Positions 10,283 to 48,004 of a DNA stretch of 64,000 nucleotides are shown piece after piece. The first letter of the stretch is position 1, and each line of letters starts with the position of its first letter. A program made the position numbers and the translations under genes. The DNA lies in the NCBI GenBank assembly GCA_950295325.1, contig OX485808.1, forward strand, positions 3,908,501 to 3,972,500, read 5' to 3'. The notes beneath the pieces were generated by a model that worked only from the letters and a program-made list of their open reading frames with translations, ran no database searches and was not told the origin of the DNA. The stretch is from Polytrichum commune. Lineage: Eukaryota > Streptophyta > Polytrichopsida > Polytrichales > Polytrichaceae.

Positions 10283-11261
10283 GGGGATTGCTATTTCCAC
10301 ACCTTTTTTGGCTAGATTCACACCTTTTTGCCGGTTTGGTTGCCGTGTCACTGAGGCGCTATATATGAGATTCTTCATGGTGCATCCGGACAGTTGATCC
10401 ATCAAGGCCCATCCAAGGGCCTCAATGATCCTAGGTGGCGATGGGGTGGGGGGCAGGGTGATGCTTGCCACCAAGGCGGGGTGGGGCCGTGGGCCTCATG
10501 TCTTTTTTGGGGAGGCCGGATTTAGGGTGGTGTCGGGCCTAGTGGCTAGGTGGGCCCAGTGGCTAGGCCAACTTATTATATGACTAGTTGGTTACCCTTA
10601 CTCTACTTACTAAATAACTAGTTGGTTACCCTTACACTACTTACTAAATGACTAGTTGGTTACCCTTACTCTACTTACTAAATGACTAGTGTTATTTAGT
10701 AAGTAGTGTTATTTAGTAAGTAAGTAGTGTTATTTAGTAAATAACTAGTGTTATTTAGTAAGTAGAGTAAGGTTAAGGTAACCAACTAGTTATTTAGTAA
10801 GTAGAGTAAGGGTGACCAACTAGTCATTTAGTAAGTAGAGTAAGGGTAACCAACTAGTCATTTAGTAAGTAGAGTAAGGGTAACCAACTAGTCATTTAGT
10901 AAGTAGAGTAAGGCTAACCAACTAGTTATTTAGTAAGTAGAGTAAGGGTAACCAACTAGTTATATAATAAGTAGGCCTAGCCACTGGGCCCGCCTAGCCA
11001 CTAGGCCCGACACCACCCTAAATCAGGCCTCCCCAAAAAAGACATGAGGCCCACGGCCCCACCCCGCCTTGGTGGCAAGCACCACCCCCGCCCCCCACCC
11101 CACCGCCACCTAGGATCATTGAGGCCCTTGGATGGGCCTTGATGGATCAACGGTCCGGATGCACCATGAAGAATCTCATATATAGCGCCTCAGTGACACG
11201 GCAACCGAACCGGCAAAAAGGTGTGAATCTAGCCAAAAAAGGTGTGGAAATAGAAATCCCC
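10283..11261. mobile_element. Foldback transposable element
   Basis: This 979-bp element is almost entirely palindromic. Its arms start GGGGATTGCTATTTCCACACC and end with the complement, and pair for about 300 bases on each side. The direct repeat TATTCTAG flanks it (10,275-10,282 and 11,262-11,269); one more G can be added to give 9 bp. Eight bases suggests hAT and nine suggests Mutator; the GGGGATT terminus favours Mutator. ORFs in the arms mirror each other and are not genes. Confidence 0.85.
10583..10960. repeat. 34-bp tandem repeats inside foldback core
   Basis: The unit ACTAGTTGGTTACCCTTACT plus CTACTTACTAAAT repeats every 34 bp on the left side and in inverted orientation on the right side, with short GTTATTTAGTAAGTA units in the middle. 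The left side has about three units and the right side about six, so the repeat count has drifted since the palindrome formed. Confidence 0.85.
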
Positions 11262-23063: not shown

Positions 23064-25914
23064 GTCCCCTTAACCCTACAACCTTGAACCCTAAATCCAT
23101 ACCTCTTTGAACAGAACGTCAGTTGTTTTCCTCCATCGGATGGCCACAGTTTTGTTCTATACAACTGTTGCTATGATCTTTGCTTAATATGAAGGGCTCC
23201 TTTACGGTAGACCGCAAGTTGAGAGCTCAAACTTGCAATTTGCGGGATTTGTCAAGTTTCAAGCTTTCATCGAAACTCAAACTACGGAGAGCTTGACCAT
23301 TCCTCAAGCTCCCAATAGTTTGAGCGAGTGTAAAGTGGACATGCTCAAGTACTGAGACATTAAGGGGGAGTATGACTAAACAATTTAGGAGAATTCTTGA
23401 TGACAAACCAAAGAATGCTTGAAAATCCATTGACTTGGTAGAGCTCAACATTCGGACCGAGTCAAGTTGAGAGCTTGACAAGTGTAAAGGGGAGGAGTGG
23501 GGTGAAGACGAGTGAGGAAGAGGCTCATTTCCGCCAAATAAAAAGGTTGTTCTTTTCTTCAAAATCTCACTCTCAACCTCTCTAGTCATTAGAACCAACC
23601 ACCTTGACTTGATCATGAATGGAAACCAACTGAAGGTAAATTACTGTACAATACTCCGTATGAAATTTGAGAGCGAGAACATCGTAGTCATAGTTCTGTG
23701 AGACCAATAATCCTTGGAGCTGGAAGGTTTGTGCGAACCTCAGAGAAGCTAGAATCGTCTGCAAGTGAGTCACAAAGCTCTGACCCGCACACCAAGGGAA
23801 CCAGTGAGTTTAAACATTCCTCACTGGACAAGGCCACGTTAATCTTGCTCTTTGGCACCAACTTGCTGCTACGGGGCGACATCCAAAGCATTTCTTCTCT
23901 TTCATGAGGATCTTTAGACTTAACACACTGATCCAAGCGCTGGGACAAAGAAACATTTTCAAACAACAAATGACTGGTTTTCCACCTCCGGTTAATGGCC
24001 GATGACCCATCAAGCTCTCCGAAGTAGTTATGGAGATGCCCACATGGGAGTCACCGAGAATGTCACCGTGGAAATAGTCCTCCGGTTAGGAAGCTTTGCA
24101 CACCCCTTGTTTAACACATGTACCATCATCACCAAGAAGCTCAACATGAAGGCCTACCTATTCCTCTCTTTGGCACTTCACAGTACCGCAGCAAGCCTAG
24201 GTCTTTCCTTGAACTTTCAGGAATTATGCCTGGCTTAATGTCCCAGATATCCCTCACACCTGCGTATACACACCGATATCCGGCCTTCGTAAAGGTCTTT
24301 TCATCAATCCTGATGGCAGCTGCGAATGCAGCCCCGATTGATGGGAGTACGAACAAATCCCAAAGAGCGTAGCCTTCGGAGCAAACCAGGGGGATGTGCT
24401 TCACAATGTTAGTCTTCTTCTTGTTTGCTAGCCATCTGCGCAAATCCTTAGATGCCTGTGGTACTTTTGGGCCACCCCCTTTCGAGGGAGCCTAAAAGTA
24501 TCACACAAGCCCTTCGGTGAAGGTGGCCTGCATTTGCAGGCGCCCAGGCCGAACCCGGATGATAGGTGTATAACGTGAGTAGTTAGATTTTTAAGGGAGA
24601 TTAAATATGCGTCGTAGTACCTCCGGAGGTTAGGCCTTAGTTTTTTACTAGTGTGGCTTTAAACTCCACTAACCAATTTCATATCTAGTTCTAACCTTAA
24701 CCTACAACCTATTCTACGCGCAGACGCACCAGCCTTGAAACCAAGGCAATCCTAATTTGTGAATTGGGATGGTTCTGATACACCCAACCGGGTGTGACTC
24801 ATACCACCCTAACTCAACGAACGGAATAACGACAATTTGATGGACCATTCAATTCTTCCTATTTCTTTATTTAGTTCTATTTAGTTTTCTAAGCGGGGGA
24901 ACTTGGCCTAAGTCCCACCCTTCACACAAATTCCTTCTTAATTACTTACTTTTGTTTGCACGTCCTAACTTACTAATTAACATATTAGGCATCACCCCTT
25001 ACCTCGGGTCTCTTGCCAACAAGGGTTTACGATTTATTTTGTATGTTTTGATTGTTAAATGTGTTTACACTGGATAGACCACGAAATGCAACTCAATGGG
25101 ACCAGGGTGACGGGCGACCTGTAGGTTCAACCTGTTGCGCAATCTTCATAAATTGGGGCCATTACTCCCAATCTATGGGGCCAACAACATAATAGTGGAT
25201 TCGCGGGTCATTAACCCCACCTTTCCACCAACAACATTCAGAGTGGTCGTGTCGGTGATTAATCCGACTTACCACACACGAAACTTGCTAATAAATGAAG
25301 CTACTACCACAAAACATACCAAGGGCCCCGAAAACAATGGAATTGGGTACTCCCTTGGCGGTCAAGTGGTCAAGCCACTTGACCTTACGAGATAGGTGAG
25401 TGGGTTTAGAGATGCGTACCTTAGCCGTGCTCCCTCAAATCCTAAATGGAAGGCTTAAGGTTAGTTAATTTACCTCAATTTTCCTCGGTTGATTTGGGCT
25501 TGATGTAGGCCGAGCCGCTACCTCCTTCCTTGCTCCACTTTCCGAGCGTCGACCTTGCCTCCTTCTTTGTAACTAGTTTGGTAGTAAGCGTACCTTAGTT
25601 AACAATTAAAATATAAAGTGTTATTCTGCCCTGTAATTTAATCCTAAGCATAATATTTATACTTAGTGCACCAAATTATCTTTCCAATGATCTAAAAATC
25701 ACTCTAATCGGATAAGAAATGCAAAAGTTATGAGGGTTGGAAGTGTGAGGTCGATTCAACCGACCCTTCCAACCCACCTATCTACCTTCTAACTTCAAAA
25801 ATTCATAGCACATTCCTTACTACTTGGATCTAGGCTTTCCTTATACCATTGGAAAGCTATGAACAAGCTCTAACTAGAAAAATTATGACATCAGCAGGTT
25901 AAGCTAATAGAAAT

Positions 25915-31040: not shown

Positions 31041-31439
31041 GGTCTTTGCACTCCAAGTGGACAAAAGACTAGTCAATTATGCAAGCTCATGTACAACATA
31101 TCATGTAATGCACTACATATTGTCTATTTATATGCATGTGATATGTTTTATTCAACTACAACCAATCCACTTGTACATAAATGATGGTCAATTAACCTTA
31201 TAAGCCATGTTTTTTTTTTACTAATAAACCCTAACAAATGGTTTTATCCACTAAGGGTACCACATCTCCATCATAGGAACTTAATAAAGCCAATGACATT
31301 ATGTATATTTGACTAATTGACCTCATGAAATGATTCATTTACTGGAAACTAACTAGCCTCATTATGTTTCACTTATTCCACATGGTCAATTACTATCTAC
31401 CAAGTCAGGAATGCTACGATGTGAGCGGTGAGCGGTGAG

Positions 31440-33900
31440 CAGATCTCGTGAGCAGAAAATCAAAATTTAAAACTCCACTTTAAAGAAAGTTAGGACCCTT
31501 ATGACCGTGGATTTTGCACATATTTCAAGAATATTTCCCAAATTTATTGACAAAAAGAACCTATATCCGTGGTGGAGGAACCTATACTGTATTTGCTTCC
31601 ACCTTCTATTACAAGGTTTGTAGGTTGGGAATGGGTCTCGGATGGTTACAGGTTGTCATTTGAGGTGGACTAAGTCCCACTTGGAGAAGGCCTACGATCC
31701 GAGGCCTCATGGCTTGAGCCCCTAAATTCTGATTGTGTTTTAAAGTTGGTGGTTTTTTGGTGGGTCTTGGCATTACAAGTGGAGGGGCTATGTAAGCCTC
31801 AATCCTCCTCACCCTTCGATTGCGTCCTAGTCCGGGTGAGGAATCATGGGCTACACCTCAAATTGCAATTCACATGTGCAAGCAAGGGAAGAAGATCGGG
31901 AGAAGTGGTGTATATAACACCTTTTTCTTTCTTTCATTAACTTGCAAGCATTTACAAATGCTTGAACACCACACACATCATCAATCACTAATGATCACCT
32001 ACATCCCTCCCCTCATCTAGCCTAATTGCACCTTCCTTCCCAACCGAATAATTAAGCTCTTCATCTGCCTCCTACCTAATACCAACCCAACCTTCCTCTC
32101 AATATTGACCCCTGGACCACCCTCTGCACCTGGCGGTTGTCCCAGGCTCCTTGGGGTTCCAACAGATCCTCAAAGCCCACCTTCAAATTTCTACGCTTGC
32201 TTCTTCAAACTAACCTCCTATTCCAGCAATAATCATCTCGTGCCACCTGACTAGAAGCTCCATGTCCTAGGAATATTGCCCCTGGTTACCCTTCTGATCT
32301 CGCTCAGCTTGGGTTATAACCAACCCTCGCACTTTCTTATTCTTTGTCTACGTCCTCTTCGTCAATTCTGGCGCATCCTCTTGCATTCTCTGATCTGAAC
32401 TCAACCCTTTGCGATACTTACCATTGCACTTGATGTTGCGAGGCTGGTTAGAAGTGTTTGTACCTCTGAAGATTATCCGCTCCTTGCCGAAACCTTCGTG
32501 TGTGGCGCACTACTCCATCAGCAGATAGGCTGCCCTTCGCTCTTCACTCAATTATGGACAGTCTTTCGAGCTCCGATTGCCAGCCAGGGTTGGGATAAGG
32601 AACTCATGAAGCCCCCACCGCCCATTTCGAGTGGCGATTCCCCAAGGTTTCGGCATTATCAACCTGCCGTGGCTCTGCATCGTAGTTCCAGACAAGTATA
32701 TACAACCGCCAGTGGCCGCTGGGGCCACACGCACACACAACAACGGTGACCCTACTCCCTTGCAACGGTTGTTCTCCCTAACCAATCCAACTTCTACCAA
32801 CTTCCTTGATCTTCATAGCAAGTCGGACATGGGGCTGCAGCAGCAACCCACTGCCACCTCCCACGGTTTCAAGCCCACAAGATTCAAGGATGATGCGGTT
32901 GTGCCCCAAGCCTCGACAATGCGTTGCTTAATCCGATTCCGCTCCCCGGCATTGTCTTCCCTCTTGCACATCAGTGAGTCACCGGAGTGCCTTGGGCTCG
33001 GGCAAACACCAAAAACCCGGCGATAAAGTTCCCCTCTGGCTGTCTGCTACGACCACCCTTCTTTCAGTCGAATGGTTGCGGTCCCCCGTCTTGAATCCTA
33101 GCAGCACGGGAATTTCTTTCGGGGAGATCTGTAAGCTCTTCGCATCAGAGTACCTTTCTACGTCGATTTGTCCGCTCACTCTCGCTATCTCTCTCGCCTC
33201 CTGGATCTTCCTATCAGTGCATCCGTCTCCTTCCCCGTAACACCGTTCGTGGTCCATGCGTTCACTCCCCTCCCTACTACCCAGTCTGCGACCCCTCCGT
33301 GCTCCAGAAGGGAGAACATTGGGGCATGCCTATTGTCGTTCTTCTTCTAGGCAGAGCTCCCGCATCCCTGCTCATCGCCCTTCTCGCAAAGCTCCCGCGG
33401 GCAGAGCTTCCGCATCCCTCATAGAGAGCTCTCTCTCTCTCCTCCGTTGGCTCGTCACAGCCGCACCCGATCATCTCCCCCTGCAGCCAAAGACCAGACA
33501 CCCGAAAACACACCTCCCCACCGAAACCACTCCTTCCACTCTCTACCTCTCTCCCGAGCAGGGCTTCTCCCCTCTGCCCTTTTCCTCCTCCTCTACCCTT
33601 GAACATGCATAATGAGCTCTCTACCTCCTACCTCCCGAGACCCCTCCAACCTCTACCTTTTTTCCCGGGTTGCCCGGCATCTTTCGGGCCGCCCGAGAGA
33701 AAAAACGGGTTAAGACCTTTTCTTTTGGCCTCTCCTCCTTTCCAACCCACTTTCCCTCTTCTTCTCTTGACTTCTTCTCCCCCTAGGCCCCTAGATAACT
33801 CAAACTCATTGATAGATAGATAAACACATAAGATAAAATAAAAGTAACCCCCCATAGTTGTTAGCAAGTAATCACGCTCGTGTTATGGTATAAGTTGAGG
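31440..33900. other. GC-richer interior of MULE, no firm gene
   Basis: From about 32.1 to 33.7 kb the sequence is clearly GC-richer than its surroundings and open in several frames on both strands (for example minus 33,257-32,979). No frame is favoured and no domain is seen. GCAGAGCTCCCGC and GCAGAGCTTCCGC form a local repeat near 33,350-33,410. It may be captured genic or retroelement sequence. Confidence 0.35.
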
Positions 33901-33914
33901 TTTGTTGTGGTTGT

Positions 33915-34040
33915 GGTCACCAAGTCATGTTTCCTCGGTTGGTTGAGGGAGGGAATTTGTACAACACTTAAGCGGTCCGGGTTCGATCCCCATAGACTCC
34001 GTTTGACCGCTTAAGGTGTTTATACATGACTTGGTGCTGC
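33915..34040 (+). repeat. tRNA-like (SINE-like) double hairpin
   Basis: GGTTCGATCCC at 33,980-33,990 is a perfect tRNA B box (T-arm). A possible A-box-like TTGGTTGAGG lies about 40 bp upstream. The B box sits in the loop of AACACTTAAGCGGTC paired with GACCGCTTAAGGTGTT. An outer pair ACCAAGTCATGT and ACATGACTTGGT (33,919-33,930 and 34,024-34,035) encloses it. This could be a SINE fragment or a tRNA remnant captured in a foldback. It does not fold as a full cloverleaf. Confidence 0.4.
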
Positions 34041-34449
34041 TAGTGAATTCTAGGCAGGAAATTAGTACCCAACCAACCGACGCTTACTCCTCTTCCTGAG
34101 CTATTCATGTAACTATCGTTCAATAAATAACGGTCATCATTATGACCCCTCCTTTATTCTATTGGCTTTTCTTGGTTTTTCGAAGTACGTTTTTACTAGA
34201 CTCTCCATTAAACGCTTATGTATTCACCTCCCCTTTCTTTCATAAGGTTAATTTCACTTCTAGCTCCTAATTACCTCTTAGCCTACTTTTACCGGAATAT
34301 TCAACGCCTCACCTTTCTCATCACTTGATAATTCCATCAAGCGTGAAATTAACGTATTAGCCATGTTGTTGTGATTAAGGATTAATGTGAGCACGATTTC
34401 GGGCTCACAGGCTACTTTGCAGAAGGCCTCAGATCCGAGGTCTGTTGGC

Positions 34450-34790
34450 CTTGGGGTTTGTTGTTTGATTTGAGGCCAAGTTTATGGTTTCAGGTTGAAT
34501 GAAGGCATGCCATGTTTGGGTTTCATGTTTAGCTACATTCAACCTGACTCCATAAATTTGACCTCAAATCAATGGTCTCAATTTGGGTCTCGACATGCCC
34601 AATGGCTTAGATTTCATGTTCGGTCTCGGCATGGCCACTTTGGACAAGGCCTAGGGGTTTTATGTTTGACTTGAATTCAAGTTAATGGTTACCGGTTCAA
34701 AGTGGGCATGCCATGTTTGGGTTTCATGCTTAGCTACATTCAAACTGACACCATACATTTGACATCAAATAATTGGTTTCTGGTTTAGTG
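34450..34790. repeat. Two diverged copies of a palindromic 115-bp unit
   Basis: Each unit has GGCATGCCATGTTTGGGTTTC in the centre, flanked by arms such as GTTTATGG..AGGTTGAAT and ATTCAACCTG..CCATAAAT. Copies are at about 34,470-34,585 and 34,665-34,785. Confidence 0.65.
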
Positions 34791-34982
34791 TCGTTGGTGC
34801 ACACTTTAGCGAACTTATAGACCATTGTGTAATATAGGTGTGTAATATAACCGCAGCGAGACCCAGCTCATGCTGCACAAAGAGAGAACAAGAACGAGGA
34901 AACCCAATTTTGAAATGAAAATGAAATTAATAAGTTGGACAAGATGTTTTGGACCAAAGAAATGAACTAGAGCTAGACAAAT

Positions 34983-36700
34983 GAGAGCACCCGAAATCTG
35001 AACCTAGAGCCGAGGCTTCACATTGTTAGAATCTAACCTGAAATGAGGCCATCAAATCCAAAACATTAAGTGAGACCTGAAATCTGAACCTATATCCAGG
35101 GCTTCAATGTGTTTGATTTTAACCTGAAATGTGGCCAACTAGACTTATATAAAGTGAGCACCCGAAATCTCAAACTAGAGCCGAGGCTTCAAAGTGTTAG
35201 ATTCTAACCTGAAATGAGGCCAACTACATATATATAAAGTGAGCACCTGTAATTCGAACCTTGAAGCCGAGGCTTCAAAATGTGACCCTCTTGACCTCAA
35301 AATGAAGGTTTCGGTCCTGAAACCCATATATTGGACATCCACATAATGTGAGAACCTGATATCTAAGCCTATAGGCCACTTTCAAAGACTTAGATTCTAA
35401 CCTGAAATGAAGCTAACTAAACCAACATAAAGTGAGCATGTGAAAAATCAAACTAGAGCCGAGGCTTCAAAGTGTTAGATTCTAACCTGAAATGAGGCCA
35501 TCCAAACCAACATAAAGTGAGCACCCGAATTCTCATACTAGAGCCTAGGCTTCAAAATGTTAGATTCTAACTTGAAATGTGGCAACTAGACTTATATAAA
35601 GTGAGCACCTGAAATCTCAAACTAGAGCGGAGGCTTCAAAGTGTCAGTTTCTAAGTTCAAATGAGGCTACTTAGAGTTAGAGTCTAACCTGAAATGAGGC
35701 CAACTAAAACAACATAAAGTGTTTACCTTAAATCTGAACCTAGAGCCGAGGCCTCTTATTGTTAGATTCTAACCTGAAATGAGGCCAACTAGATAAATAT
35801 AAAGTGAGCACCTGTAATCTGAAACTTGAAGCCGAGGCTTCAAAATGTGACCTTCTAGACCTCCAAAGGAAGGTTTCGGTCCCGAAACCCATATATTGGA
35901 CACCCACATAAAGTGAGAACCTGATATCTAAGCCTATAGGCCACTTTCAAAGACTTAGATTCTAACCTGAAATGAGGCCAATTAAAACAATATAAAGTGA
36001 GCACCCGAATTCTCATATTAGAGCCTAGGCTTCAAAGTGTTAGATTCTAACCTGAAATAAGGCCAACTAGACTTATATAAAGTGAGCACCTGAAATCTCA
36101 AACAAGAGCCGAGGCTTCAAAGTGTTAGATTCTAACCTGAAATGAGGCCAACCACACATATATAAAGTGAGCACCCGAAATATCAAACTAGAGCCGAGGC
36201 TTCAAAGTGTTAGATTATAACTTGAAATGAGGCCAACTAGATATATATAAAGTGAGCACCTTTAATTGAACCTTGAAGCCGGGGCTTCAGGGTGTGACCC
36301 TCTAGACCTCAAAAAGAAGGTTTCGGTCCCGAAACCTATATATTGGACATCCACATAAAATGATAACCTGATATCTAAGCCTATATGCCACTTTCAAAAA
36401 CTTAGATTCTAACCCGAAATGAGGCCAATTAAGACAACATAGAGTGATCACCTAAAATCTGAACCTAGAGCCGAGGCCTCTAATTGTAAGATTCCAACCT
36501 GAAATGAGGCCAATTAGACATATATAAAGTGAGCACCCGAAATCTCAAAGTAGAGCCGAGGCTTCAAACTGTTAGATTTTAACCTGAAATGAGGCTACTT
36601 AGGGACCTCCTAATAATGGTTCAGTCCCGAATCTCATATATTGGACATCCACAAAATGTGAGAACCTGAAATCTTAACCTATAGCCCACCATCAAAGTTC
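34983..36700 (+). repeat. 85-bp satellite-like array, left block
   Basis: The monomer is about 85 bp: GTGAGCACCCGAAATCTC, AGAGCCGAGGCTTCAAAGTG, TTAGATTCTAACCTGAAATG, AGGCCAACTA and TATATAAA. It is interrupted at intervals by a GGTTTCGGTCCCGAAACCC plus CATATATTGGACATCC module. Units are diverged and indels are common. 85 is not a multiple of 3, so open frames here are accidental. Confidence 0.9.
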
Positions 36701-36764
36701 ACATATTTCACAAAATCATTAGGACTATTCCGTGACGCACCTGAAATATGAAATTTGTAAATAC

Positions 36765-37680
36765 ATGTAATGGTAACGAATACCAAGTCTTCTGAGACTT
36801 CTTGCACTTTTTGAGGTCGGTTGGACTCAAAATGTCATTGAATTGTTCAATTGACATAAAACCATACTTCTGAACCCTCAAGAGGGTATGGACAATGTTG
36901 GTCTTCACATGAGAGTCCTCTGTATGTCTAAATACAAAAATCAAATGGAAGATATTAGATTATCGTAGTAAGAAAGAAAGTGAAATCATATTGAATTTTC
37001 AATGAAAGATTATATATCAAAAGAGAATGAACATACTTGTTTATGTTGTGCATGACTTGCATAACAAGTCCATTTTTCCCCTTTGTGTAAAGGAGAATTG
37101 AATCCACCAAATAATGCCAATCCTCATTAGTTCGGTGAAGTCTGTCAATGTGATTTAACCAAGCTTGACGCCTATGGTTGCCGTCGCACACAAAAAACAT
37201 CAAATTTGTGAATGGAGCCAACGCTGGATCCAAGAGGAGAAATGAGTTGAAAATGGCGTTTTTGGTGTCCCAAATAGGACCCCAAGAAGCTTTATGAGCT
37301 TCCGTCACTTCATGGGTCTTTCCGTCTTCATTGGTAGTTGTAACATAAAAGACCGAAGCGCCTTCCCTGTATCCGTGCACAAATTCTTGCTCGAGCTTAG
37401 TAAGATCGGATGCCAAAGTTGGCCGTACCATCGGCATTGCCATCAATCTGCACAACGGAATATTAAATCGCGAGGAACTGTTTGGTTGAAATCTCAAGCT
37501 TGTGATCGTGGCCACAGAGTTAACTTTCTGCCTAGTCCGAATCTCATGCTCATTACCTAGAAAGTGAGCATCATCTCCAAGAGACTCTTCTTCTACCTTA
37601 TGCTCGTCCTCTAGTATATCCATATCTGAAAGCTTTCCCTCCGATACTTGTGTCGAAGGTGGCGAAGATATAGCATGCAC
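36765..37680 (-). CDS. ParB-like accessory gene, two internal exons
   Basis: Exon 37,680-37,037 (acceptor TTTTGGTAG) and exon 36,927-36,765 (acceptor TATTTAG, donor CAT|GTATTT) are joined by a GTATGT...TAG intron and splice in frame, which supports a real gene. The encoded part is about 268 aa: an acidic, Ser/Glu-rich start, then from about residue 86 a compact domain with FFVCDGNHRRQAWLNHI (about 162-178), the DGNHR phrase of ParB/sulfiredoxin-like nuclease folds. Exon 2 adds FMSIEQFNDILSPTDLKKCK. The first and last exons are not found. It lies between the two satellite blocks, antisense to the transposase. ParB-like assignment rests on one motif. Confidence 0.55.
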
Positions 37681-37764
37681 CTACCAAAAAGTCAACACAT
37701 TGTAGGTCAAAGTAAGTATCATTTGAACCCAATTTTTAATGTTGCTTTGTAATTAACTTCTAAC

Positions 37765-40700
37765 CATTAGAGCCATATAATGTGAGAACCTGAAATCTTA
37801 GCCTATAGCCCATCTTCAAATTCTACATTCTAACCTGAAATGAGGCCAATTACATATATATAAAGTGAGCACTTGAAATCTCAAAGTAGAGCCGAGGATT
37901 CAAAGTGTTAGTTTCTAAGTTCAAATGAGGCCACCTAGGGACCTCCAAGGGAAGGTTTCGGTCCCGAACCCCATATATTGGACAGCCACATAATGTGAGA
38001 ACCTGAAATCTAAGCCTAGAGCCCACCTTCAAATTCTACAATCTAACTTGAAATGAGGCCAACTACACACTTATAAAGTGAGCAGTTGAAATCTCAAAGT
38101 AGAGCCGAGGCTTGAAAGTGTTAGTTTCTAAGTTGAAATGAGGCCACCTAGGGACCTCCAAAGGAAGGTTTCAGTCCCAAACCCCATATATTGGACAGCC
38201 ACATAATGTGAGAACCTGAAATCTAAGCCTAGAGCCCACCTTCAAATTCTACAATCTAACTTGAAATGAGGCCAACTACACACTTATAAAGTGAGCAGTT
38301 GAAATCTCAAAGTAGAGCCGAGGCTTGAAAGTGTTACAGCCACATAATATGAGAACCTGAAATCTAAGCCTAGAGCCCACCTTCAAATTCTACATTCTAA
38401 CTTGAAATGAGGCCAACTACACACATATAAAGTGAGCATTTGAAATCTCAAAGTAGAGCCGAGGCTTGAAAGTGTTAGTTTCTAAATTCAAATGAGGCCA
38501 CCTAGGGACCTCCAAATGAAGGTTTCGGTCCCGAACCCCATATATTGGACAGCCACATAATATGAGAACCTGAAATCTAAGCCTAGAGCCCACCTTCAAA
38601 TTCTACATTCTAACTTGAAATGAGGCCAACTACACACATATAAAGTGAGCATTTGAAATCTCAAAGTAGAGCCGAGGCTTGAAAGTGTTAGTTTCTAAGT
38701 TGAAATGAGGCCACCTAGGGACCTCCAAATGAAGGTTTCAGTCCCGAACCCTATATATTGGACAGCCACATAATATGAGAACCTGAAATCTAAGCCTAGA
38801 GCCCACCTTCAAATTCTACATTCTAATTTGAAATGAGGCCAACTACACACATCTAAAGTGAGCATTTGAAATCTCAAAGTAGAGCCGAGGCTTGAAAGTG
38901 TTAGTTTCTAAATTCAAATGAGGCCACCTAGGGACCTCCAAAAAAAGGTTTCGGTCCCGAACCCCATATATTGGACAGCCACATAATATGAGAACCTGAA
39001 ATCTAAGCCTAGAGCCCAATTCAAATTCTCCATTTTCTAACTTGAAATGAGGCCAACTACACACATATAAAGTAAGCACGTGAAATCTCCAAGTAGAGCC
39101 GAGGCTTGAAAGTGTTAGTTTCTAACTTGAAATGAGGCCATTTAGGGACCTCCAAAAAAGGTTTCGGTCCCGAACTCCATATATTGGACAGCCACATAAT
39201 GTGAGAACCTGAAATCTAAGCCTAGAGCCCACCTTCAAATTCTACATTCTAACTTGAAATGAGGCCAACTACACACATATAAAGTGAGCACTTGAAATCT
39301 CAAAGTAGAGCCGAGGCTTGAAAGTGTTAGTTTCTAAATTCAAATGAGGCTACCTAGGGACCTCCAAAAAAAGGTTTCGGTCCCGAACCCCATATATTGG
39401 ACAGCCACATAATGTGAGAACCTGAAATCTAAGCCTAGAGCCCACCTTCAAATTCTACATTCTAACTTGAAATGAGGCCAACTACACACATATAAAGTGA
39501 GCATTTGAAATCTCAAAGTAGAGCCGAGGCTTGAAAGTGTTAGTTTCTAAGTTGAAATAAGGCCACCTAGGGACCTCCAAAAAAAGGTTTCGGTCCCGAA
39601 CCCCATATATTGGACAGCCTAGGGACCGCCAAATAAAGGTTTCGGTCCCGAACCCCATATATTGGACAGCCTAGGGACCTCCAAATGAAGGTTTCGGTCC
39701 CGAACCCCATATATTGGATAGCCTAGGGACCTCCCGATGAAGGTTTCGGTCCCGAACCCCATATATTGGACAGCCACATAATATGAGAACCTGAAATCTA
39801 AGCCTAGAGCCCATCCTCAAATTCTACATTCTAACTTGAAATGAGGCCAACTACACATATATAAAGTGAGCACCCCAAATATCAAACTAGAGCCGAGGCT
39901 TCAAAGCTTTAGATTATAACCTGAAATGAGGCGAATTAGACTTATATAAAGTGAGCACTTGAAATCTGAACCTAGAGCCGAGGCTTCAAAGCTTAAGACT
40001 CTAACCTGAAATGAGGCCAACTAGACTTATATAAAGTGAGCACCTGTAATTTGAACCTTGAAGCCGAGATCTCAGGGTGTGACCCTCTAGACCTCAAAAG
40101 GAAGGTTTCGGTCCCGAAACCCTTATATTGGACATCCACATAAAGTGATAACCTGAAATCTAAGCCTATAGGCCACTTTCAAAGAGTTAGATTCTAACCT
40201 GAAATGAGGCCAACTAAAACAACATAGAGTGAGAACCTGAAATCTTAGCCTATAGCCCACCTTCAAATTCAAGATTCTAACCTGAAATGAGGCCAACAAG
40301 ACATATATAAAGTGAGCACCCGAAATCTCAAAGTGGAGCCGAGGCTTCAAAGTGTTAGTTTCTAAGTTGAAATGAGGCCACCCAGGGACCTCCAAAGGAA
40401 GGTTTCGGTCCCGAACCCCTTATATTGGACAGCCACATAATATGAGAATCTGAAATCTAAGCCTAGAGCCCACCTTCAAATTCTACATTCTAACTTGAAA
40501 TGAGGCCAACTACACATATATAATGTGAGCACTTGAAATCTCAAAGTAAAGCCGAGGCTTGAAAGTGTTAGTTTCTAAGTTGAAATGAGGCCATTTAGGG
40601 ACCTCCAAAAAAGGTTTCGGTACCGAACCCCATATATTGGACAGCCACATAATGTGAGAACCTGAAATCTGAGCCTATAGCCCTCCTTCAAAGTGTTAGA

Positions 40701-41390
40701 TTCCAACCTGAAATGAGGCCAACTAAACATATATAAAGTGAGCACCCGAAATCTCAAAGTAGAGCCGTGGCTTCAAAGGCTTAGATTCTAACCTGAAATG
40801 AGGCCAACTAGACTTATATAAAGTGAGCACCTGTAATTTGAACCTTGAAGCCGAGATCTCAGGGTGTGATCCTCTAGACCTCAAAAGGAAGGTTTCGGTC
40901 CCGAAACCCATATATTGGACATCCACATAAAGTGATAACATGATATCTAAGCCTATATGCCACTTTCAAAAACTTAGATTCTAACCCGAAATGAGGCCAA
41001 CTAAGACAACATAGAGTGATCACCTAAAATCTGAACCTAGAGACGAGGCCTCTAATTGTAAGATTCCAACCTGAAATGAGGCCAACTAGACATATATAAA
41101 GTGAGCACCCGAATTCTCAAAGTGGAGCCGAGGCTTCAAAGTGTTAGATTCTATCTTGAAATGAGGCCATTTAGGGACCTCCAAATAATGGTTTCGGTCC
41201 CGAAACCCATATATTGGACATCCACATAAAGTGATAAACCTGATATCTAAGCCTATATGCCACTTTCAAAGACTTAGATTCTAACCCGAAATGAGGCCAA
41301 CTAAAACAAAGGTTTTGGTCCCGAAACCCATATATTGGACACCCACATAAAGTGATAACCAGAGATCTAAGCCAGAGATCTCTGGTTAAA
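37765..41390 (+). repeat. Higher-order tandem array, right block
   Basis: Here the 85-bp monomers are organised into a higher-order unit of about 213 bp (unit starts at about 38,432, 38,644 and 38,858), highly alike between 37.8 and 39.6 kb. Each unit includes the GGTTTCGGTCCCGAACCCC plus ATATATTGGACAGCC module. After 39.8 kb the order reverts to the looser pattern of the left block. Because 213 is a multiple of 3, the same antisense frame stays open for parts of several units, but it shows no protein features. Confidence 0.92.
39595..39770 (+). repeat. 52-bp subrepeat, four copies
   Basis: GGTTTCGGTCCCGAACCCCA..CCTAGGGACC repeats every 52 bp with few mismatches. It is a local amplification of the spacer module of the 213-bp unit and so records ongoing unequal exchange or slippage. 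Confidence 0.9.
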
Positions 41391-41425
41391 CCAGAGATCT
41401 AACCAGAGATCACGAGATCTTATAC
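41358..41425. repeat. CCAGAGATCT palindrome cluster at array edge
   Basis: AACCAGAGATCTAAGCC, AGAGATCTCTGGTT, AACCAGAGATCTAACC and AGAGATCACGAGATCT follow each other. AGAGATCTCT is self-complementary. The cluster marks the exact right boundary of the tandem array. Confidence 0.7.
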
Positions 41426-44400
41426 AAGTGTTCGCACGAAGGACAGTCCTATATTTAATGCCCACTTGGGTCTTTGTCATTCGTTCTATTCCTGTCTTGA
41501 AACGTCAAGTCTATCTCTAGACCTAGTTATGAATCATGTTTTAAGTCAGCGCCAAATAATCATATTTAATTGCTTGTCAAATAAAATGTCTACCATGACT
41601 TGCACGCTGTACTTATATATATCATGACAACGTTACCCATCACTTTTAGACTCAAGGGCGGCTGTTTCCATATTGAAAATATTAGTGAAGCTTTCGTTCA
41701 GAGTTCATCCATCATGTGGATCATGTCGTTGTCTTTGGCAGCCCATTTGTAATATATAGATGGCCCACAATGTTCAGAATCCTCTCTCATATTTTCCTCT
41801 TAGTGCAAGTCCTGACTCCCCTCATCATGGCTCATATTCTTGCTAAAGCAGAGTTGGGGATGGTTGTCCTCTATGCACATGGAGTGAGAGTCCCACTTAC
41901 CTTTCGGATGCAAGAGGACTGTCTAGCTTACGTGACGTCCCAACGTCTGAGTCTTCGGTTTGGCTTCAAAGAGGACACTATTAGTGTTGAGGAGGATATT
42001 TTTGATGATTTGACGTCAGAGCTTACACACACGCTTGGTCGGTTATCGCAGGGAGATGAGAGCAATAATTTGTTTTAGAGTCTTTATCCAGGTAGTTACC
42101 GAGTGTATGGCCTCACTGATTCTCAGATGGCTGCATCTACTGAGATCCTCACTCCTCGTTGTTCCTCTACCTGCACCATTCAAACTCTTCTGCCACGTGA
42201 TGTGAAGGTCAAGCTCAAGCCCGGTCTCGACACGCCAATTGTAGAAAACGTTAGAGTTCAGTCTGTAATTACACTTTCTTCAGATGAAGAGGGCAGTCCC
42301 ACCAAGCCCCCGCCTCAGGTTATAGTTAGTGGGAACGCTCCTAAAGTATATCCTTTGTTGCAAGAGACTGTTAGCATATTTCCATTGCTAAAACAACTTG
42401 CAGGAAGGCCGGGAAAAAAAATATTCTAAAAAAATTAGATTACTCAGTGATTAGACACGAGAGAGTAGAGTACCTTCCTGCTGTGTTCGATGGTGTCGTC
42501 ATATTTGAGTTGCCACCCGCTGGTGACACGGCCGCACGGTCACAGGCCAAGTCAATGCAGGGAATGGACAAGCGTTACGACGGCCATGTGTGGACGAAGA
42601 CCATCACAACCAACATCACAAACGACGTTGGTTTGTCCTCCCGTTATTCCACCTGCGTTGCAACAACAAGGAGTGCGAATATTTGAACCACCGACCTCGC
42701 ATCTTCCAAGTCAACGAGACAGAGTTTGAAGGTTGTACCCTCCAAGCCTTTGTAGTGGATCAATCACCCCCAACTGACTCTACGCTTGTTTGCAAGGTAT
42801 GTAAAGAACCCCCGGCATGTATTGCCAAATGTGGAGCTAAGATTTATTATGTGGTTGGCAAAAGCAACCAAACCAGAGCGTGTATCCACCTAGGGACTCA
42901 TGATCACCCAGTCAAGGTGGGCGACTACAGAGACACTAAGGCTGAGATCAGTGGCCTAATTGAAGAGCAGATCGAGAAGACTCCACAAGCTACCAAGAGT
43001 GCAGTGGTGTTGGAGGCTAGCAAAGTTCTAATTGGAAACTATCTTCTTCAACCCGAGGACGCGCCACCAAAGAAGTTGACTCTAGAGGAACTTGTTCCTG
43101 TATTTGACCGATGCAAGGACATGGCTTCTCCAAACATCCGCAACAAGGTCATGAGCTTCCGTTTCCTGAGAAGGTATGGTGTCATGGACTCTATCACCAA
43201 ACTCCGTGGAATCAGTTTATGGGCCTTTGTTCAGGAGAATAAATTTCCAGGTCAAGGGGTTGATCTTGACAAGGTTTTTGTCTTCAAGATGTCGGAAGTC
43301 GGGCCTGGTAGTGGGGTAGACTTGATGAAGCGTATGCAGCCCGGTGAAGATTTGGAGAATGCTTGGATGATGTTTGACCATGTCAAACGGGTAAGACAAT
43401 GGACCACAATGGCATGCCATGTGTATGATTCCACGTATTGCCGTGTCATGACCATTGCAAGCTGTGACATGCAATCCGAGGACTCTGAGGCCCAGATCGT
43501 TTTCTGGAAGAATCTCAATGCTGTCATGGAGAGGAATGGCGTTGTCAAGCCCAACTTCAAGGGTTTCATGGCCGACAACGCCCAGGCCAATTGGAATGCA
43601 GTTCGGGTCATATATGGCAACGGGAAGAAGGAGGACTGCATGGACGACCGGGAGAGAACCTGTCAGTTTCACTGGACCCAGTCTATGGTTAAGTATACCG
43701 AGAAGTATATTCCCAAAGAACTCTGGGAGCAACACAAGAAGATGTGCCACCAATATAGGACCACGAGGACCATGGACCAAGCGGAAAGTCTGTACCACGG
43801 GCTACGTGCATGGTGGGTATCCGCCGGGGCAGTGACAGAGAAGGCACTAAACAAACTAGAGCTCTGGCTTGCATTCTGGCACTACCGTTATCGCCAATGG
43901 GGAGGCTTCATGACCGGGGTATGTTTTCCTAAAACATTTCATTTTTTTCATTTTTTTCACATTATCCTAATCTGAATCAACTCTTCTCTAATCTCTAACT
44001 ACTTCTACTATGTACTCACAGAAATTTTCAGAAGAAGAACTAGCAGAAATACCTTCATGTAATCTCGCTGAAACAATACACAACAAGTGGCTTCAAGTGT
44101 CTGGAAACAGCGGCGGCGACCTCTACGTGGCTACAGTGGACGACTTCGTTCGAGGCTTCCTACAGGTTGTCAATTACTACCAATTCCTGAAAGGTGACGT
44201 CGGCGGAACAGGCCCTACAAAGAAAGAGCTTAAATTAAGGATGGCAGAACGCAGGGCGAAACAAACAGGTAATCCCTTAGTGCTTGAAGATCCCATGTTG
44301 GACATGCCTGGAGCAGAAGAGTTTTGTACCCGTGAGCCTCGCATGGCTGGAGAAAAGGTATTCGGGTCCACGAAGCGGAAAGCAGATCTACCTCTTGGAG

Positions 44401-44807
44401 CTGAAGAGGAGTCTCATCGGCCTGACAAGGTAAACTTCTCACATCCAAGAGGTTTAGGACGTTGTCGGGTAGAGAGGGTTCCGCCTTGGGAAAACACTGG
44501 GCTTCTAGCTGCAACTAGATTTTATCGGACCCGTCGAATCTTCTGGTCTTCAATCGAGTCTTCTGGTCTTCTAGTCTTCTAGTCTTCAATTTCTTCAATT
44601 TCTTCTAATCTTCAACCTCTTTCCCGTCGACCTATCCTGTTGCGGCTCTATATGGGTAAAGGGTAAGGGTAGTGTGATAAGAAACCACGGGCTTCGGACG
44701 GGTAAAACGGGATGTCAAAACACGAGCTGACGTCCAAAAGATTGGCTCCTAAATTTTCAAACCCACGGTGACCAACAATCGCGCCTCACCAGTGGGAACG
44801 ACAGAAA

Positions 44808-44886
44808 ACAACCTTGTGGGTGATCAATCCCACTTCGTTGTCACAAACAACCTTGTGGGTCATTAATCCCACTTCGTTGTCACACA
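44808..44886 (+). repeat. 39-bp tandem repeat in transposase intron 2
   Basis: ACAACCTTGTGGGTNATNAATCCCACTTCGTTGTCACA is present twice, spaced 39 bp. Each unit is itself nearly palindromic around GGGTGATCAATCCC. Confidence 0.85.
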
Positions 44887-45394
44887 TTAAACAAATTACG
44901 ATGCAGAAATGAAATGCAACTAGCCTCCAAAACCGGCTTGGAATCACACACAAAAAAAAAAGACAATGTGCCACAAGCAACCACATATTCGAGTCTTGAA
45001 GCCTTCAATTCTTCAATTTGTCCGTCTTCTATGGTCGGTTGAAGTCTCAGCTCTTCTTTTAAGAACCAACAGACTTCCCTCCACTCAAACAAGCACAAAT
45101 CTTGATTGCTAACTTCCAAAACAACAAGTGAGATCTCTCATGAATCACAAATCCCTCGTATTTTATTTCATATTCTTCTCAAAACAACTCACCCCGTGAG
45201 CTTCAAATCCACCTTTCTCTCTCAACAACTTCTTTCCCACAATAATCACATAACATCTTTCCTTCACCACCTCTCTCTATCCATGCGAGAGACAAAATTC
45301 AATCTTATCCTCATCACATGGCTTCTAATCACCCATTGGTCCAAAAAGTAACTCAAGATAAACTAAGTAAGACTAAAACAGGTAAAGTAAAGGC

Positions 45395-45590
45395 AACACT
45401 AAGAGTAAATTGTGAGTAAACAAAATGATAAAGGTAATTATCCACTTCTATCCACTTTTATCCTTTGGTAAAGGTAACTAAGAGTAAACTATGAGTAATT
45501 AAAAAGGTAAGCAACTTCTATCCACTTCTATCCTTAGGTAATGATAACTAAAATAAACTATGATTAAATAAAAAGGTAATCTACTTCTCT
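45395..45590 (+). repeat. About 80-bp AT-rich tandem repeat in intron 2
   Basis: Three diverged units contain ACTAAGAGTAAACTATGAGTA, AAAAGGTAA and CTTCTATCCACTT blocks. They lengthen the second transposase intron to about 1.28 kb. Confidence 0.7.
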
Positions 45591-47073
45591 TCTTTATTAT
45601 TTTTCTCCAATACCAAGAATCACAATGCAATATTAAATACGTACACATCTATATAGTGTACATATTTACATTACGACAACGTGCAGTGAGGTCTCGTCCT
45701 ATGCAGATGCCCATCATTATAGAAGAAGATACTGAAGATGATACACACGTCCAAGAAGATCACCCCCCTGCGCTTGAGCCTGAGAGCATCCCTCCGTCCC
45801 CACCGAACGAGGGAGGGATCCGTCATGTCAGTGTTGTTGAAGAGACAAAGGTTAACGTCAAGGAGTGGCACATATCAAGACTTCCCAAGACCTCGGCGAA
45901 GTGTTGTTGGGCCCAGAGAGTTGTCACGAAAAAGAAGTGTACCGAGAGAATTGTGAGGGGCGCCAATTCGACCGCCGCACCTACCTACACCGGAGTTTGG
46001 ACTAATATACGCAGGAATGTTTCAGAGAGGACAAAATTCTTCTTCTGCTCCGACGACATTGACAGGTGCGTGAAGGGCACAAGGCGCAAATGGGTTGCTA
46101 AGCACTCTGCAGACCAGGAAATGCCCCTGATTCCAAACATTTGGCCGGTGAAGCTAGGCACAAACCTCAAGCTCACTGAAATTCTTGCCCTTGAAGCGGC
46201 TGGATTCCAACTCCCGCATAAGAAACCGGTCTCTCCAAGACGCCTCTTCTCTTCTGCCCCGCCGCCTGCAAATCTCAACGCGGTGCCCGTTCCTGCAGAA
46301 GCAGACCGCTACCCTGGCAAGAGAGACGGCAAGATGGTCAAACGCACTGCCACTCGCCCAAATCCGGCGCAACAACTCTCCATGGCCTCCTCCGACTCCC
46401 TCAAAGCTCGCCTCCGTTCCATCACAATGATACCTCATCCAGGCCATGGTTGCATCATCGGACTGGATTCAGGTGTTCCTCCTGCCATCACATAGTACCA
46501 GGTCACCATCAGCTCTTTCCTGGGTTGCACTTGCCCTGCATTCAAGAAGACGATGACTAAGTTCCGAGGGAGGACCCAATTCTCTTATTGCAAGCATGTG
46601 TACTTCATCCTTTTGAAGGTTTGCCACCGTGATCCCGAGGCCGACCTTTTCATTCACGCGCCTACCTTTAGCTTCAACGAGGTCAAGCTAGTCCTAGAAA
46701 GCGGACTCTTGACTCACCCTTTGGCTAAAAAGTAGGAGGCAATCTACAAACAGCCTAGCTCTTGTCAATGGACGGTGGCCACTCAAAATTCCCTCGTCAT
46801 TACATGAATTGAGTCAGCAATATAAGATTCATATTGTCTTTTTCAATATAAAGGGTCTTGTCATTCACATTGATTGCATTGTGTATCTATATCTTTAACC
46901 ACTAATGTCTTGCCACCTAGCACAAGTACACTATGCACGACTACTTTGTAAGCACCCACCAATGCATTATTAGTAGATAGATAGATAGAAACTCCGGTCC
47001 CTTTTAAGGGTTGCACTATTGGTACTAACTATGTATCGCTTATAATTGCCAATCAATGGTTGTTCACTTGGTT

Positions 47074-47571
47074 TCATTGATTGAATTTAATGCGTTTTGG
47101 TTTGCCCCTTGCCATTTTGGCATAACTACGAACCTCCGGCTCCACTACAGGACAAACTACATTCACGTCCATTTTCGGCACCACACTTGGCATTTGTCCT
47201 AGGTGGGAACGTTTCAACAATGGACCTCGTCCCCTCAACCCACTAAGTGTTTTCCGGGAATAAGTTCCCGGGGGGATTTTTCCAACCTTCGAGTATGCAT
47301 GAGGTGGCAAGGGCACCTCCACCTTCTCCTCAAAAACCAAGGTGTCACTAGTATCCTGTGCTGGTGAAGGGTCTCCTCTCGGAACTAATCGGACCTTGAA
47401 ATCCCCCATCACTTCAAGCCCCTGGCTACAAACCTCCACCTGCTCTTCTTCCCCACCCTCCACATATGGTTGAAACGGGCCTACGCAGTCACCAAGTGAA
47501 ACAGCAACACCTCTGTCCTCATCCATAACCCTAGCAGTAGATAGCCCAACCCTATAGTGATTAGGTAGCAA
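47074..47571 (-). CDS. Hypothetical ORF near right end of MULE (165 aa)
   Basis: Not recognised. The frame begins MLPNHYRVGLSTARVMDEDR, has an acidic EGGEEEQVEV stretch (about 38-47), a proline-rich PLPPHAYSKVGKIPPG segment (about 88-103) and a basic end ARGKPKRIKFNQ that could bind nucleic acid. No membrane or catalytic motif is visible. It lies antisense to the transposase between it and the right terminus, a usual place for MULE accessory or captured sequence. It could also be a fragment of a retroelement ORF. Confidence 0.35.
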   Translation of the reverse strand: MLPNHYRVGLSTARVMDEDRGVAVSLGDCVGPFQPYVEGGEEEQVEVCSQGLEVMGDFKVRLVPRGDPSPAQDTSDTLVFEEKVEVPLPPHAYSKVGKIPPGTYSRKTLSGLRGRGPLLKRSHLGQMPSVVPKMDVNVVCPVVEPEVRSYAKMARGKPKRIKFNQ

Positions 47572-48004
47572 AAAATCAATCGAAAAAAGAGAAAGAGTCG
47601 ACCATAGCCCAAGGTTATATATCCCTGAGAAAGGTGCTTGGCGCCCTTGAGAAACGACCTTCGAAGAAATAGATGATACTCATCCTGTAGAAAACAACGA
47701 AAACATACCCGTTAAAAAAAATTGTTTAAATCAACCAATATTACTGGAAAGTGAGAGCACGGTAATAGGCAAAAAATAGGAATTTTCAATCTTTAAACCC
47801 CTTGGGTCCACGGTTATAGGTCTAAAAAATTGGCCACAAATAATAATATTCTTCGAATATTTCTGAAATATATTCCAAATTGCTAAATTTAGCAAAAATG
47901 TCTATATTTGGATTCTGGTCTCCATTTTCTGCTCTCCGCTCTCCAATTCTCCGCTCTCCGCTCTCTGCCCATTGCTCGCATACAAGTCTCGTCCTCTACC
48001 AAGT

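Follow-up and report, generated by a model that had tools for sequence, protein, structure and literature searches.

A 64,000-nucleotide stretch of the moss Polytrichum commune genome, referred to here as the window, raises the question of whether the transposase, the ParB-like gene and the satellite repeats lying between its GAGCGG-rich ends belong to one mobile unit and, if so, of what kind. We consider, with a probability of about 0.72, that the region is one large insertion of a MULE-like transposon, with a transposase gene plus a second gene of the ParB-methyltransferase type on the opposite strand. The features of the insertion are summarized in Table 1.

Table 1. Features of the insertion and its flanks, by position in the window.
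Feature	Position	Strand	Basis
Left TSD copy, 10 bp, TCTACCAAGT	31396-31405		Repeat read; empty site in paralogous repeats
Left terminus, CAGGAATG..., then GAGCGGTGAGCGG subterminal repeats	31406-31535	+	End probe; inverted-end comparison
Nested insertion, 2.6 kb, TG...CA ends, 5-bp TSD GGCTA	31791-34409		Missing from 4/4 sister copies
Left-subterminal conserved stretch, two diverged ~130-bp direct repeats	34410-34842		Sister-copy comparison
Exon 3 remnant, ParB-methyltransferase-type gene	34851-34937	-	82% DNA identity to C4 copy
Satellite block, 85/170/447-bp units, between second-gene exons 2 and 3	34985-36602		Repeat analysis
ParB-like part, exon 2 (HTEDSHVKTN...)	36741-36927	-	Genome comparison
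ParB-like part, exon 1 (IPLCRL..VRPT..., CDGNHRRQAW)	37037-37680	-	ORF; genome search
Satellite block, 213-bp and related units, upstream of exon 1	37771-41305		Repeat analysis
Two ORFs upstream of transposase core	41689-42426	+	Retained by C2_20k and C3_32k; partial in C1_7.6k
Transposase core ORF, D (43376), D (43574), C..H (43661-43672)	42527-43972	+	ORF; motifs
Transposase 3' exon, first part, E of SCNLAETIHN (44070)	43992-44462	+	ORF; sister-copy comparison
Nested insertion, 1.2 kb, TG...CA ends, TSD ACGT, LTR-like	44463-45678		Splits transposase exon
Transposase 3' exon, continuation	45683-46495	+	Sister-copy comparison
SWIM-like zinc finger, past in-frame stop	46496-46621	+	PF04434, E 0.0022, 17.9 bits (cut-off 19.6)
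Third ORF, HAYSKVGKIPPGTYSR motif	47077-47679	-	Short similarity stretch in two related elements
Right terminus, ...CATACAAGTCTCGTCC	47865-47994	+	End probe; inverted-end comparison
Right TSD copy, 10 bp, TCTACCAAGT	47995-48004		Repeat read

Boundaries and target site

The first-pass annotation had described an element flanked by an exact 9-bp target duplication, CTACCAAGT, at 31397-31405 and 47996-48004. The flanking repeat is real, but its true length is 10 bp, and the element ends at 47994 rather than 47995. The 9-bp sequence occurs three times in the window, where chance would give 0.59; the remaining match is on the opposite strand, at 23433. The match between the flanks is not chance, because both ends recur in four other genomic copies, each with a duplication of its own (10/10, 10/10, 10/10, and 9/10 bp), and because paralogous repeats carry the empty site. 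Both lines of evidence came from checks that the annotation had suggested, a search for further copies by the two ends and a search for the unfilled site. In the latter, paralogous repeats matched the joined window flanks, continuing through the insertion point and holding a single copy of the site that has diverged somewhat. Among its 28 matches, one paralogous repeat spans the junction over query positions 1-180 (82%); a further 21 (80-87% identity) align over about 82-180 and a single one over 82-140, and six of these 23 repeats were fetched and aligned.

The end pairs, duplications and empty sites identify window positions 31406-47994 as a single DNA-transposon insertion of 16.6 kb, and the proposal of one mobile unit with paired outer repeats holds. 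Two nested LTR-like insertions within the stretch might instead suggest a pile-up of unrelated elements, with the 10-bp repeats derived from different insertions. However, the empty site crosses the junction, and both ends are conserved at four other loci, each with its own duplication. The empty sites rule out such a pile-up, the probability of which we regard as negligible. Both nested insertions are later arrivals: the 2.6-kb one is solo-LTR-like, and the 1.2-kb one is missing from both sister copies that retain its region, C2_20k and C3_32k.

Identical gene content in several full-length copies had been put forward as proof of one element, but the content differs: ParB exons were present in two of the five copies, methyltransferase exons in three, and transposase in three. 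The window copy has lost the methyltransferase part, whereas three sisters bounded by target-site duplications kept it and lost the ParB part. No copy bounded in this way with both genes complete was seen among those examined. The window copy itself would be non-autonomous, because an LTR-like insertion breaks its transposase exon and the methyltransferase part is lost; it would have moved before this damage or with proteins supplied by other copies.

Transposase gene and superfamily placement

The transposase gene would occupy the right half of the element and read toward the right end. The transposase with DDE, CxxH and SWIM features reported earlier was located: D, D, C..H and E, read by eye, follow in that order (D-66-D), and a SWIM-like finger scores below the cut-off of its model (Table 1). 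The two upstream ORFs are probably the 5' part of the same gene. The ORF near the right end (45572-46495), previously counted as cargo, is the C-terminal part of the transposase itself, split by the later insertion. Structure models built by AlphaFold2 from single sequences were too poor to use (mean pLDDT, 36.6 and 34.0).

The inverted GAGCGG-rich ends are also real, with a local score of 30 against a best score of 25 in 500 shuffles, but the repeats are subterminal and imperfect rather than outermost, and the outermost bases are unpaired. The end comparison revealed no long terminal inverted repeats, which MULEs do not require, non-TIR MULEs being known. MULEs have target-site duplications of 8-11 bp and may carry SWIM fingers (PMC6446971). 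The duplication observed here (10 bp in the window copy and three sisters, 9/10 in the fourth) falls within that range. The element is MULE-like in its catalytic order as read by eye, its SWIM-like finger, its 10-bp duplication, and its inverted GAGCGG-rich subterminal repeats.

Some results point the other way. The Pfam model of the MULE transposase, PF10551, gave no match to the window transposase at E-values up to 10; it matched 142 places in the genome, none of them at the window transposase, among the best 150 of 271 candidates scored. An hhalign comparison of the window transposase with PF10551-positive proteins, based on thin alignments, was negative. Together with the absence of a perfect terminal inverted repeat, these results would fit a transposase outside Mutator/MULE, from another or an undescribed DDE superfamily that makes 10-bp duplications. 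We consider this unlikely, since the D-66-D, C..H, E order, the SWIM-like finger and the 10-bp duplication all suit MULEs (for duplication length and finger, PMC6446971). On the MULE-like reading, the stretch would be a single insertion of a cut-and-paste element that lacks perfect terminal inverted repeats, and the GAGCGG-rich subterminal repeats are presumably where its transposase acts.

The second gene and its linkage to the element

The second gene would occupy the left half in the opposite direction. The ORF described earlier as ParB-like is the start (N-terminal part) of this gene, antisense to the transposase, and in the window its likeness to ParB lies only in the motif order read by eye. 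The ParB model PF02195 matched neither the window ORF nor four relatives, and a genome search with that family found nothing outside contigs C12 and C23; the name likewise drew no support from other ParB models, from PDB sequences or from hhalign. No relative of the ParB-like protein was confirmed in bacterial genomes, and no relative of that protein or of the transposase in viral contigs. As a separate observation on the host genome, it holds about 14 NAC-domain genes, a family size that would suit a bryophyte-like land plant.

Distant relatives of the ParB-like ORF continue into an N6/N4 DNA-methyltransferase domain, PF01555, which scored 35.3 bits in L066 and 35.7 bits in L067 (cut-off, 26.7); searched directly against the raw genome, the scores were 30.6 and 32.2 bits. 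L045 remained below the cut-off (13.5 bits, first piece alone), and L056 had no match. The window ORF is matched by the ParB part of L066 (E 2e-23), and the methyltransferase of L067 matches sister copies of the window element at E-values down to 2e-11. In fuller relatives, the ParB-like region is N-terminal and an N6/N4-type DNA-methyltransferase region comes after it. Catalytic motif IV of such methyltransferases is (D/N/S)PP(Y/F/W). In this family, catalysis may have been lost, because the aromatic residue is mostly substituted (DIPE, HIPE, DIQE, FPD, DIPD), with DIPY in L066 only.

The left end of the C4 copy is of the window type (97% over 124 bp); within 9.7 kb this copy also has ParB exons 1-2, three further exons and a methyltransferase region, which holds at least one stop. 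No transposase was found in the 19.6 kb read. In L056, a transposase 63% identical to that of the window stands head to head with a ParB-methyltransferase gene, and the right terminus resembles that of the window element (GGACGA...); its left end and target-site duplication were not found in the 23.8 kb read. L057 likewise has a 63%-identical transposase head to head with ParB exons, and the methyltransferase pieces closest to those exons are on the opposite strand.

We counted the linkage of these parts across the genome among the best-scored candidates only. For left ends (255-bp probe), 40 of 240 candidates were scored, all with a primary match, and 40 of 58 matches were kept after 18 short secondary ones were dropped; in five of the 40, the match is confined to probe positions 134-255. 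For right ends, 41 of 44 matches were kept (three outer fragments dropped), and for ParB exons, 147 of 150 (three second pieces of broken copies dropped); these are distinct copies, the best-scored among about 1219 candidates. The 88 transposase and 150 methyltransferase-exon matches were used whole. The window copy is included in the left-end, transposase and satellite-cluster tallies.

At 23 of the 40 listed left ends, a methyltransferase exon on the opposite strand stood 2-8 kb inward of the end, compared with a mean of 0.30 and a maximum of 3 in 500 sets of random positions. ParB exons lay within 40 kb of 15 of these ends, 13 of them antisense and on the inner side (random mean 1.09, maximum 5). 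Moreover, 79 of the 147 listed ParB exons had a methyltransferase exon within 12 kb, which was downstream on the same strand in 77 cases (random mean 1.25, maximum 6). The link between ParB exons and transposases was modest, with 10 of the 88 listed transposases having a ParB exon within 40 kb (random mean 2.4, maximum 8); 8 of these 10 pairs were head to head, against a random mean of 0.6 and a maximum of 5. Methyltransferase exons were near 11 of the 88 (random mean 2.5, maximum 7).

These counts are also what two interlinked families might produce, in which the elements with the second gene would be non-autonomous passengers that have the left end in common, the window copy having arisen by recombination between such a left half and a transposase-bearing right half. 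Some part of the second gene was found at 27 of the 40 listed left ends (methyltransferase within 10 kb or ParB within 40 kb) and a listed transposase within 40 kb of only 3, whereas right ends accompany transposases (within 40 kb of 21 of the 88 listed, 19 on the same strand; random mean 0.7, maximum 4). The variable gene content of the full-length copies, and a satellite orientation that is inverted relative to the window in three of them, are in keeping with this. Nevertheless, C2_20k and C3_32k carry a transposase and a second-gene part within one 10-bp duplication, and the head-to-head arrangements of L056 and L057 join the same two genes. We regard two families as less probable than one family with two genes.

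The second gene had also been listed as cargo. MULEs are known to acquire fragments of host genes (PMC6446971), and the window copy is a fragment, as a recent, Pack-MULE-like capture from the host might leave. Against this, the best 147 of about 1219 candidates are distinct, and many are antisense and tied to these ends, some standing head to head with a related transposase. Divergence extends down to 31% identity with the domain order unchanged, and dN/dS values suggest constraint between subfamilies (0.05-0.15 in eight between-subfamily pairs, where dS is mostly saturated). Three nearer subfamily pairs, at 0.28-0.41, weigh against the reading preferred here. With this copy number and antisense linkage to left ends, recent capture is unsupported, and we consider it highly improbable.

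The satellite, another supposed passenger, surrounds the second-gene exons and is tied to the element family: 37 representative places among at least 752 matches (best 40 of 104 candidates scored) formed 31 clusters including the window, and all 31 were near element parts. The tRNA-like hairpin is unsupported: scans of the window by ARAGORN and by Rfam at gathering thresholds returned neither a tRNA nor another known RNA. A more specific proposal is that the lineage keeps an epigenetic device of its own, in which satellite arrays private to the element, or its subterminal repeats, are recognised by the ParB-like/methyltransferase protein. This protein would keep out host silencing by adenine/cytosine methylation or, if catalysis is lost, by binding alone, with broken copies rescued in trans across the genome. 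This is a speculative idea, to which we assign a low probability.

Comparison with known systems

Accessory genes of transposons whose products write or remove DNA marks are relevant to the escape of mobile DNA from silencing. With roughly a thousand candidate copies (a rough count) and with its termini and empty sites defined, the moss family is a testable system for this.

Long terminal inverted repeats are a feature of MuDR of maize. It shares the two-gene MULE layout, with a transposase gene and a second gene, mudrB, of unknown function, which is not described there as a methyltransferase (PMC6446971). The VANDAL and Hiun MULEs, with absent or degenerate terminal inverted repeats, a SWIM or CCHC finger, and the extra genes vanB and vanC, resemble the moss element in their TIR-poor ends and accessory gene beside the transposase, and in the finger in so far as that of the moss element is SWIM-like. 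They differ in their 9-bp duplications, against 10 bp here, and in accessory proteins that are not described as ParB-methyltransferase fusions (PMC6446971). VANC counteracts silencing (PMC6446971); PMC5735166 and PMC10398659 also concern these elements. By analogy, although with other chemistry, we infer that the moss second-gene product may bind the element's own DNA and serve to mark or shield it.

Among other published transposon lineages, many carry a DNA-modification enzyme, but this is a dioxygenase rather than a methyltransferase, and the superfamilies are others. A literature search of partial coverage found no report of a ParB-methyltransferase gene on a MULE-like element. A close counterpart is Sola1-1_Ec32 of Ectocarpus, a 21.5-kb DNA transposon with an accessory gene opposite the transposase strand that encodes a ParB-like domain and an N4mC/N6mA DNA methyltransferase (PMC12477816). 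Compared by description only, the two elements agree in this opposite-strand accessory gene, whereas the brown-algal one belongs to the Sola1 superfamily and that of the moss is MULE-like with 10-bp duplications. ParB-methyltransferase genes are known from algal transposons of other superfamilies (PMC12477816) and are here tied to a MULE-like plant element, which suggests that this kind of accessory gene may move between transposon superfamilies.

Limits of the element and its insertion site

In the window, both ends of the element are directly flanked by CTACCAAGT, and comparison with four further copies having both ends sets the length of the target-site duplication (TSD). The first-pass annotation had proposed a 16.6-kb Mutator-like element at 31406-47995 with a 9-bp duplication; the outer repeat pair is real and the left limit is kept, but the duplication is 10 bp long and the right limit moves to 47994. 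The further copies that it suggested looking for were found: the lists of ends (40 left, 41 right; the 40 best-scored candidates for each) contained five left-right pairs ≤ 40 kb apart, comprising the window copy and four sister copies elsewhere in the genome (named by contig and length), each with its own duplication. The coordinates are collected in the table below.

Features of the window copy, and duplications of the sister copies
Feature	Position	Ends or duplication	Remark
Element	31406-47994		16,589 bp
Left duplication	31396-31405	TCTACCAAGT	10 bp
Right duplication	47995-48004	TCTACCAAGT	10 bp
Later insertion	31791-34409	TG...CA; GGCTA	missing from all four sister copies at exact points
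Later insertion	44463-45678	TG...CA; ACGT	missing from both copies keeping the region
Transposase core ORF	42527-43972
ORF resuming the transposase exon	45572-46495
SWIM-like finger	46496-46621		after the transposase exon
Third ORF	47077-47679		minus strand
Foldback-type palindrome	10400-11144		outside the element
C1_7.6k		CGGCCCACCC	exact
C3_32k		ATACATGATG	exact
C2_20k		GGCTTATGTA	exact
C2_6.4k		CTCACCCCTT/CTCACCCCTC	9/10 identical

The empty site was also found, in repeats paralogous to the flanks. When the window flanks were joined through one copy of the site and used as a query, an element-free place on C3 matched positions 1-180 (82%), 21 more places matched over approximately 82-180 at 80-87%, and one further place matched over 82-140. 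Six of these 23 places were read; the insertion point was uninterrupted in all six, with a single, slightly diverged site copy, and the full left flank was present in the C3 place only, the left-flank match being short in the other five. Because places without the element run through the junction, the 16.6 kb, with later arrivals inside it, represents one insertion into an older repeat. The two later arrivals look like solo LTRs, and without them the element measures about 12.7 kb. The C3_32k copy (L026-L029) has an extra insertion of about 17 kb near its right end, with matching inverted ends CACTATATTCGTTA...TAACGAATATAGTG.

The element starts with CAGGAATG and finishes with GTCTCGTCC. The outermost bases of the two ends do not pair; the subterminal GAGCGG-rich repeats are inverted copies of each other (local score 30 vs. 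a best score of 25 in 500 shuffles). In a related element, what is probably the right end, recognized by eye, reads GGACGA..TGCGAGCGGTGAGCGG on the comparable strand and resembles GGACGA..TGCGAGC of the window.

Transposase and second gene

Read by eye, the residues D, D, C..H, and E occur in MULE order in the core ORF and the next exon, with 66 residues from D to D, and the SWIM-like finger scored 17.9 bits against PF04434 (cut-off 19.6). An in-frame stop ahead of this finger may be intronic. The ORF near the right end, previously interpreted as cargo, belongs to the transposase: it is the same exon resumed past the nested insert, and in two sister copies without that insert the frame crosses the insertion point. 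In one of the two, the exon is frameshifted upstream of that point. PF10551 did not match the window transposase protein, a PF10551 profile search of the genome (150 of 271 candidates scored) gave 142 places without the window transposase among them, and hhalign of this transposase, with thin alignments, was also negative. Therefore, we call the element MULE-like only; its appearance and duplication fit, but membership is not proven.

The ParB-like ORF, with 1,219 candidates genome-wide (150 scored), is exon 1 of a second gene, antisense to the transposase, and is followed by a GT-AG intron and exon 2. In relatives, the gene extends via three more exons into a methyltransferase region. In the distantly related loci L066 and L067, this domain exceeded the PF01555 cut-off, with 35.3 and 35.7 bits (30.6 and 32.2 in the raw genome), and the ParB-like part of L066 matched the window ORF with an E-value of 2e-23 and 31% identity. 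Nearer the window family, the methyltransferase exon of L056 had no Pfam match and that of L045 scored 13.5 bits, below the PF01555 cut-off; in tblastn, the exons of L056 (E 7e-8) and C3_32k (E 2e-11) matched the L067 domain. No ParB domain was recognized in the Pfam, PDB, or hhalign tests, and the name ParB-like comes from the order of motifs, as judged by eye, and from the accompanying genes. In the methyltransferase sequences read, the aromatic residue of motif IV is mostly absent, so the predicted protein may bind without methylating. Small bacterial-looking contigs (C10, C12, and C23; L061, L062) are also present in the assembly; in a single ORF of C12, a ParB_N domain precedes one of the N6_N4 methyltransferase type, and in C23 two ParB_N ORFs are adjacent.

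The first-pass annotation had named several full-length copies of the same gene content as proof of one element; such uniform content was not observed. The window copy and C2_6.4k keep ParB exons and have no methyltransferase match; C1_7.6k, C2_20k, and C3_32k have no ParB exons, and within their TSDs methyltransferase exons lie antisense, approximately 1.5-4 kb in from the left terminus. None of the copies examined carried both genes complete inside one TSD. On C4, a copy whose left end is of the window type (97% over 124 bp) contains the parts of the whole second gene inside 9.7 kb, its methyltransferase region carrying at least one stop.

Genome-wide links and selection

We analyzed the distances between these parts against random positions. 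A methyltransferase exon lay ≤ 10 kb from 23 of the 40 listed left ends, in every case antisense and toward the interior of the element (random mean 0.30, maximum 3 in 500 trials), and ≤ 12 kb from 79 of 147 ParB exons, 77 times downstream on the same strand (mean 1.25, maximum 6). ParB exons occurred ≤ 40 kb from 15 of the 40 left ends, 13 of them antisense and on the inner side (mean 1.09, maximum 5). The link of the second gene to the transposase was weaker than that to the left ends: among 88 scored transposases (the best of 2,182 candidates), 10 lay ≤ 40 kb from a ParB exon of the list (mean 2.4, maximum 8), eight of these pairs being head to head (mean 0.6, maximum 5), and 11 lay within the same distance of a methyltransferase exon (mean 2.5, maximum 7). 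A listed right end lay ≤ 40 kb from 21 of the 88, on the same strand in 19 (mean 0.7, maximum 4). In L056, a transposase 63% identical to that of the window, ParB exons, and a methyltransferase exon occur within 14 kb; in L057, the closest methyltransferase pieces are on the opposite strand. With NAC-domain genes numbering about 14 (28 exon rows), the genome is of the land-plant type, and the usual sizes of this family suggest that it is bryophyte-like.

Between subfamilies, dN/dS was 0.05-0.15 in eight pairs of transposase or ParB exon sequences, most of them having saturated dS, and 0.28-0.41 in three nearer ParB pairs; for several pairs involving the most distant copies, no value could be calculated. 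Recent transposase copies gave 0.34-0.44 (three pairs), and recent ParB copies 0.21-0.49 in seven of 10 pairs and 0.85-1.57 in the remaining three. This pattern fits proteins that were maintained during family activity and decayed after insertion.

Associated repeats and known elements

The third ORF has 18 genomic places (23 rows). Its stretch HAYSR.G.I.PGTYSR recurs 5' of the transposase in L056 (E 2e-5) and L057 (E 6e-5), and the family may have a third gene in this ORF; its position and orientation differ between the two subfamilies (window vs. L056:3919-4407). The 213-bp satellite unit had 752 matches (40 scored of 104 candidates). The 37 listed places form 31 clusters, all ≤ 30 kb from a family ParB or methyltransferase exon, end, or transposase, compared with a mean of 1.5 and a maximum of 6 for 31 random positions (500 trials). 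The C4 copy had no match to the window satellite, which thus belongs to a subfamily; three of the four sister copies carry it in the opposite orientation to the window. The foldback-type palindrome has outer arms of 59 nt (97%) and inner arms of 248 nt (95%), made of mirrored 34-bp tandem repeats.

MULEs are reported to make 8-11 bp duplications, often to have SWIM fingers, sometimes to lack TIRs, and sometimes to carry extra genes (PMC6446971). The extra domains in Table 1 of that paper include SET, and no ParB or DNA-methyltransferase gene is among them; neither the word bryophyte nor Physcomitrella appears in its text. Judging by the listings, our literature search found no report of a ParB-methyltransferase gene in MULE-like elements. 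In Ectocarpus, Sola1-1_Ec32 is described as carrying such a gene in antisense, and similar proteins are cited in green and red algae (PMC12477816).
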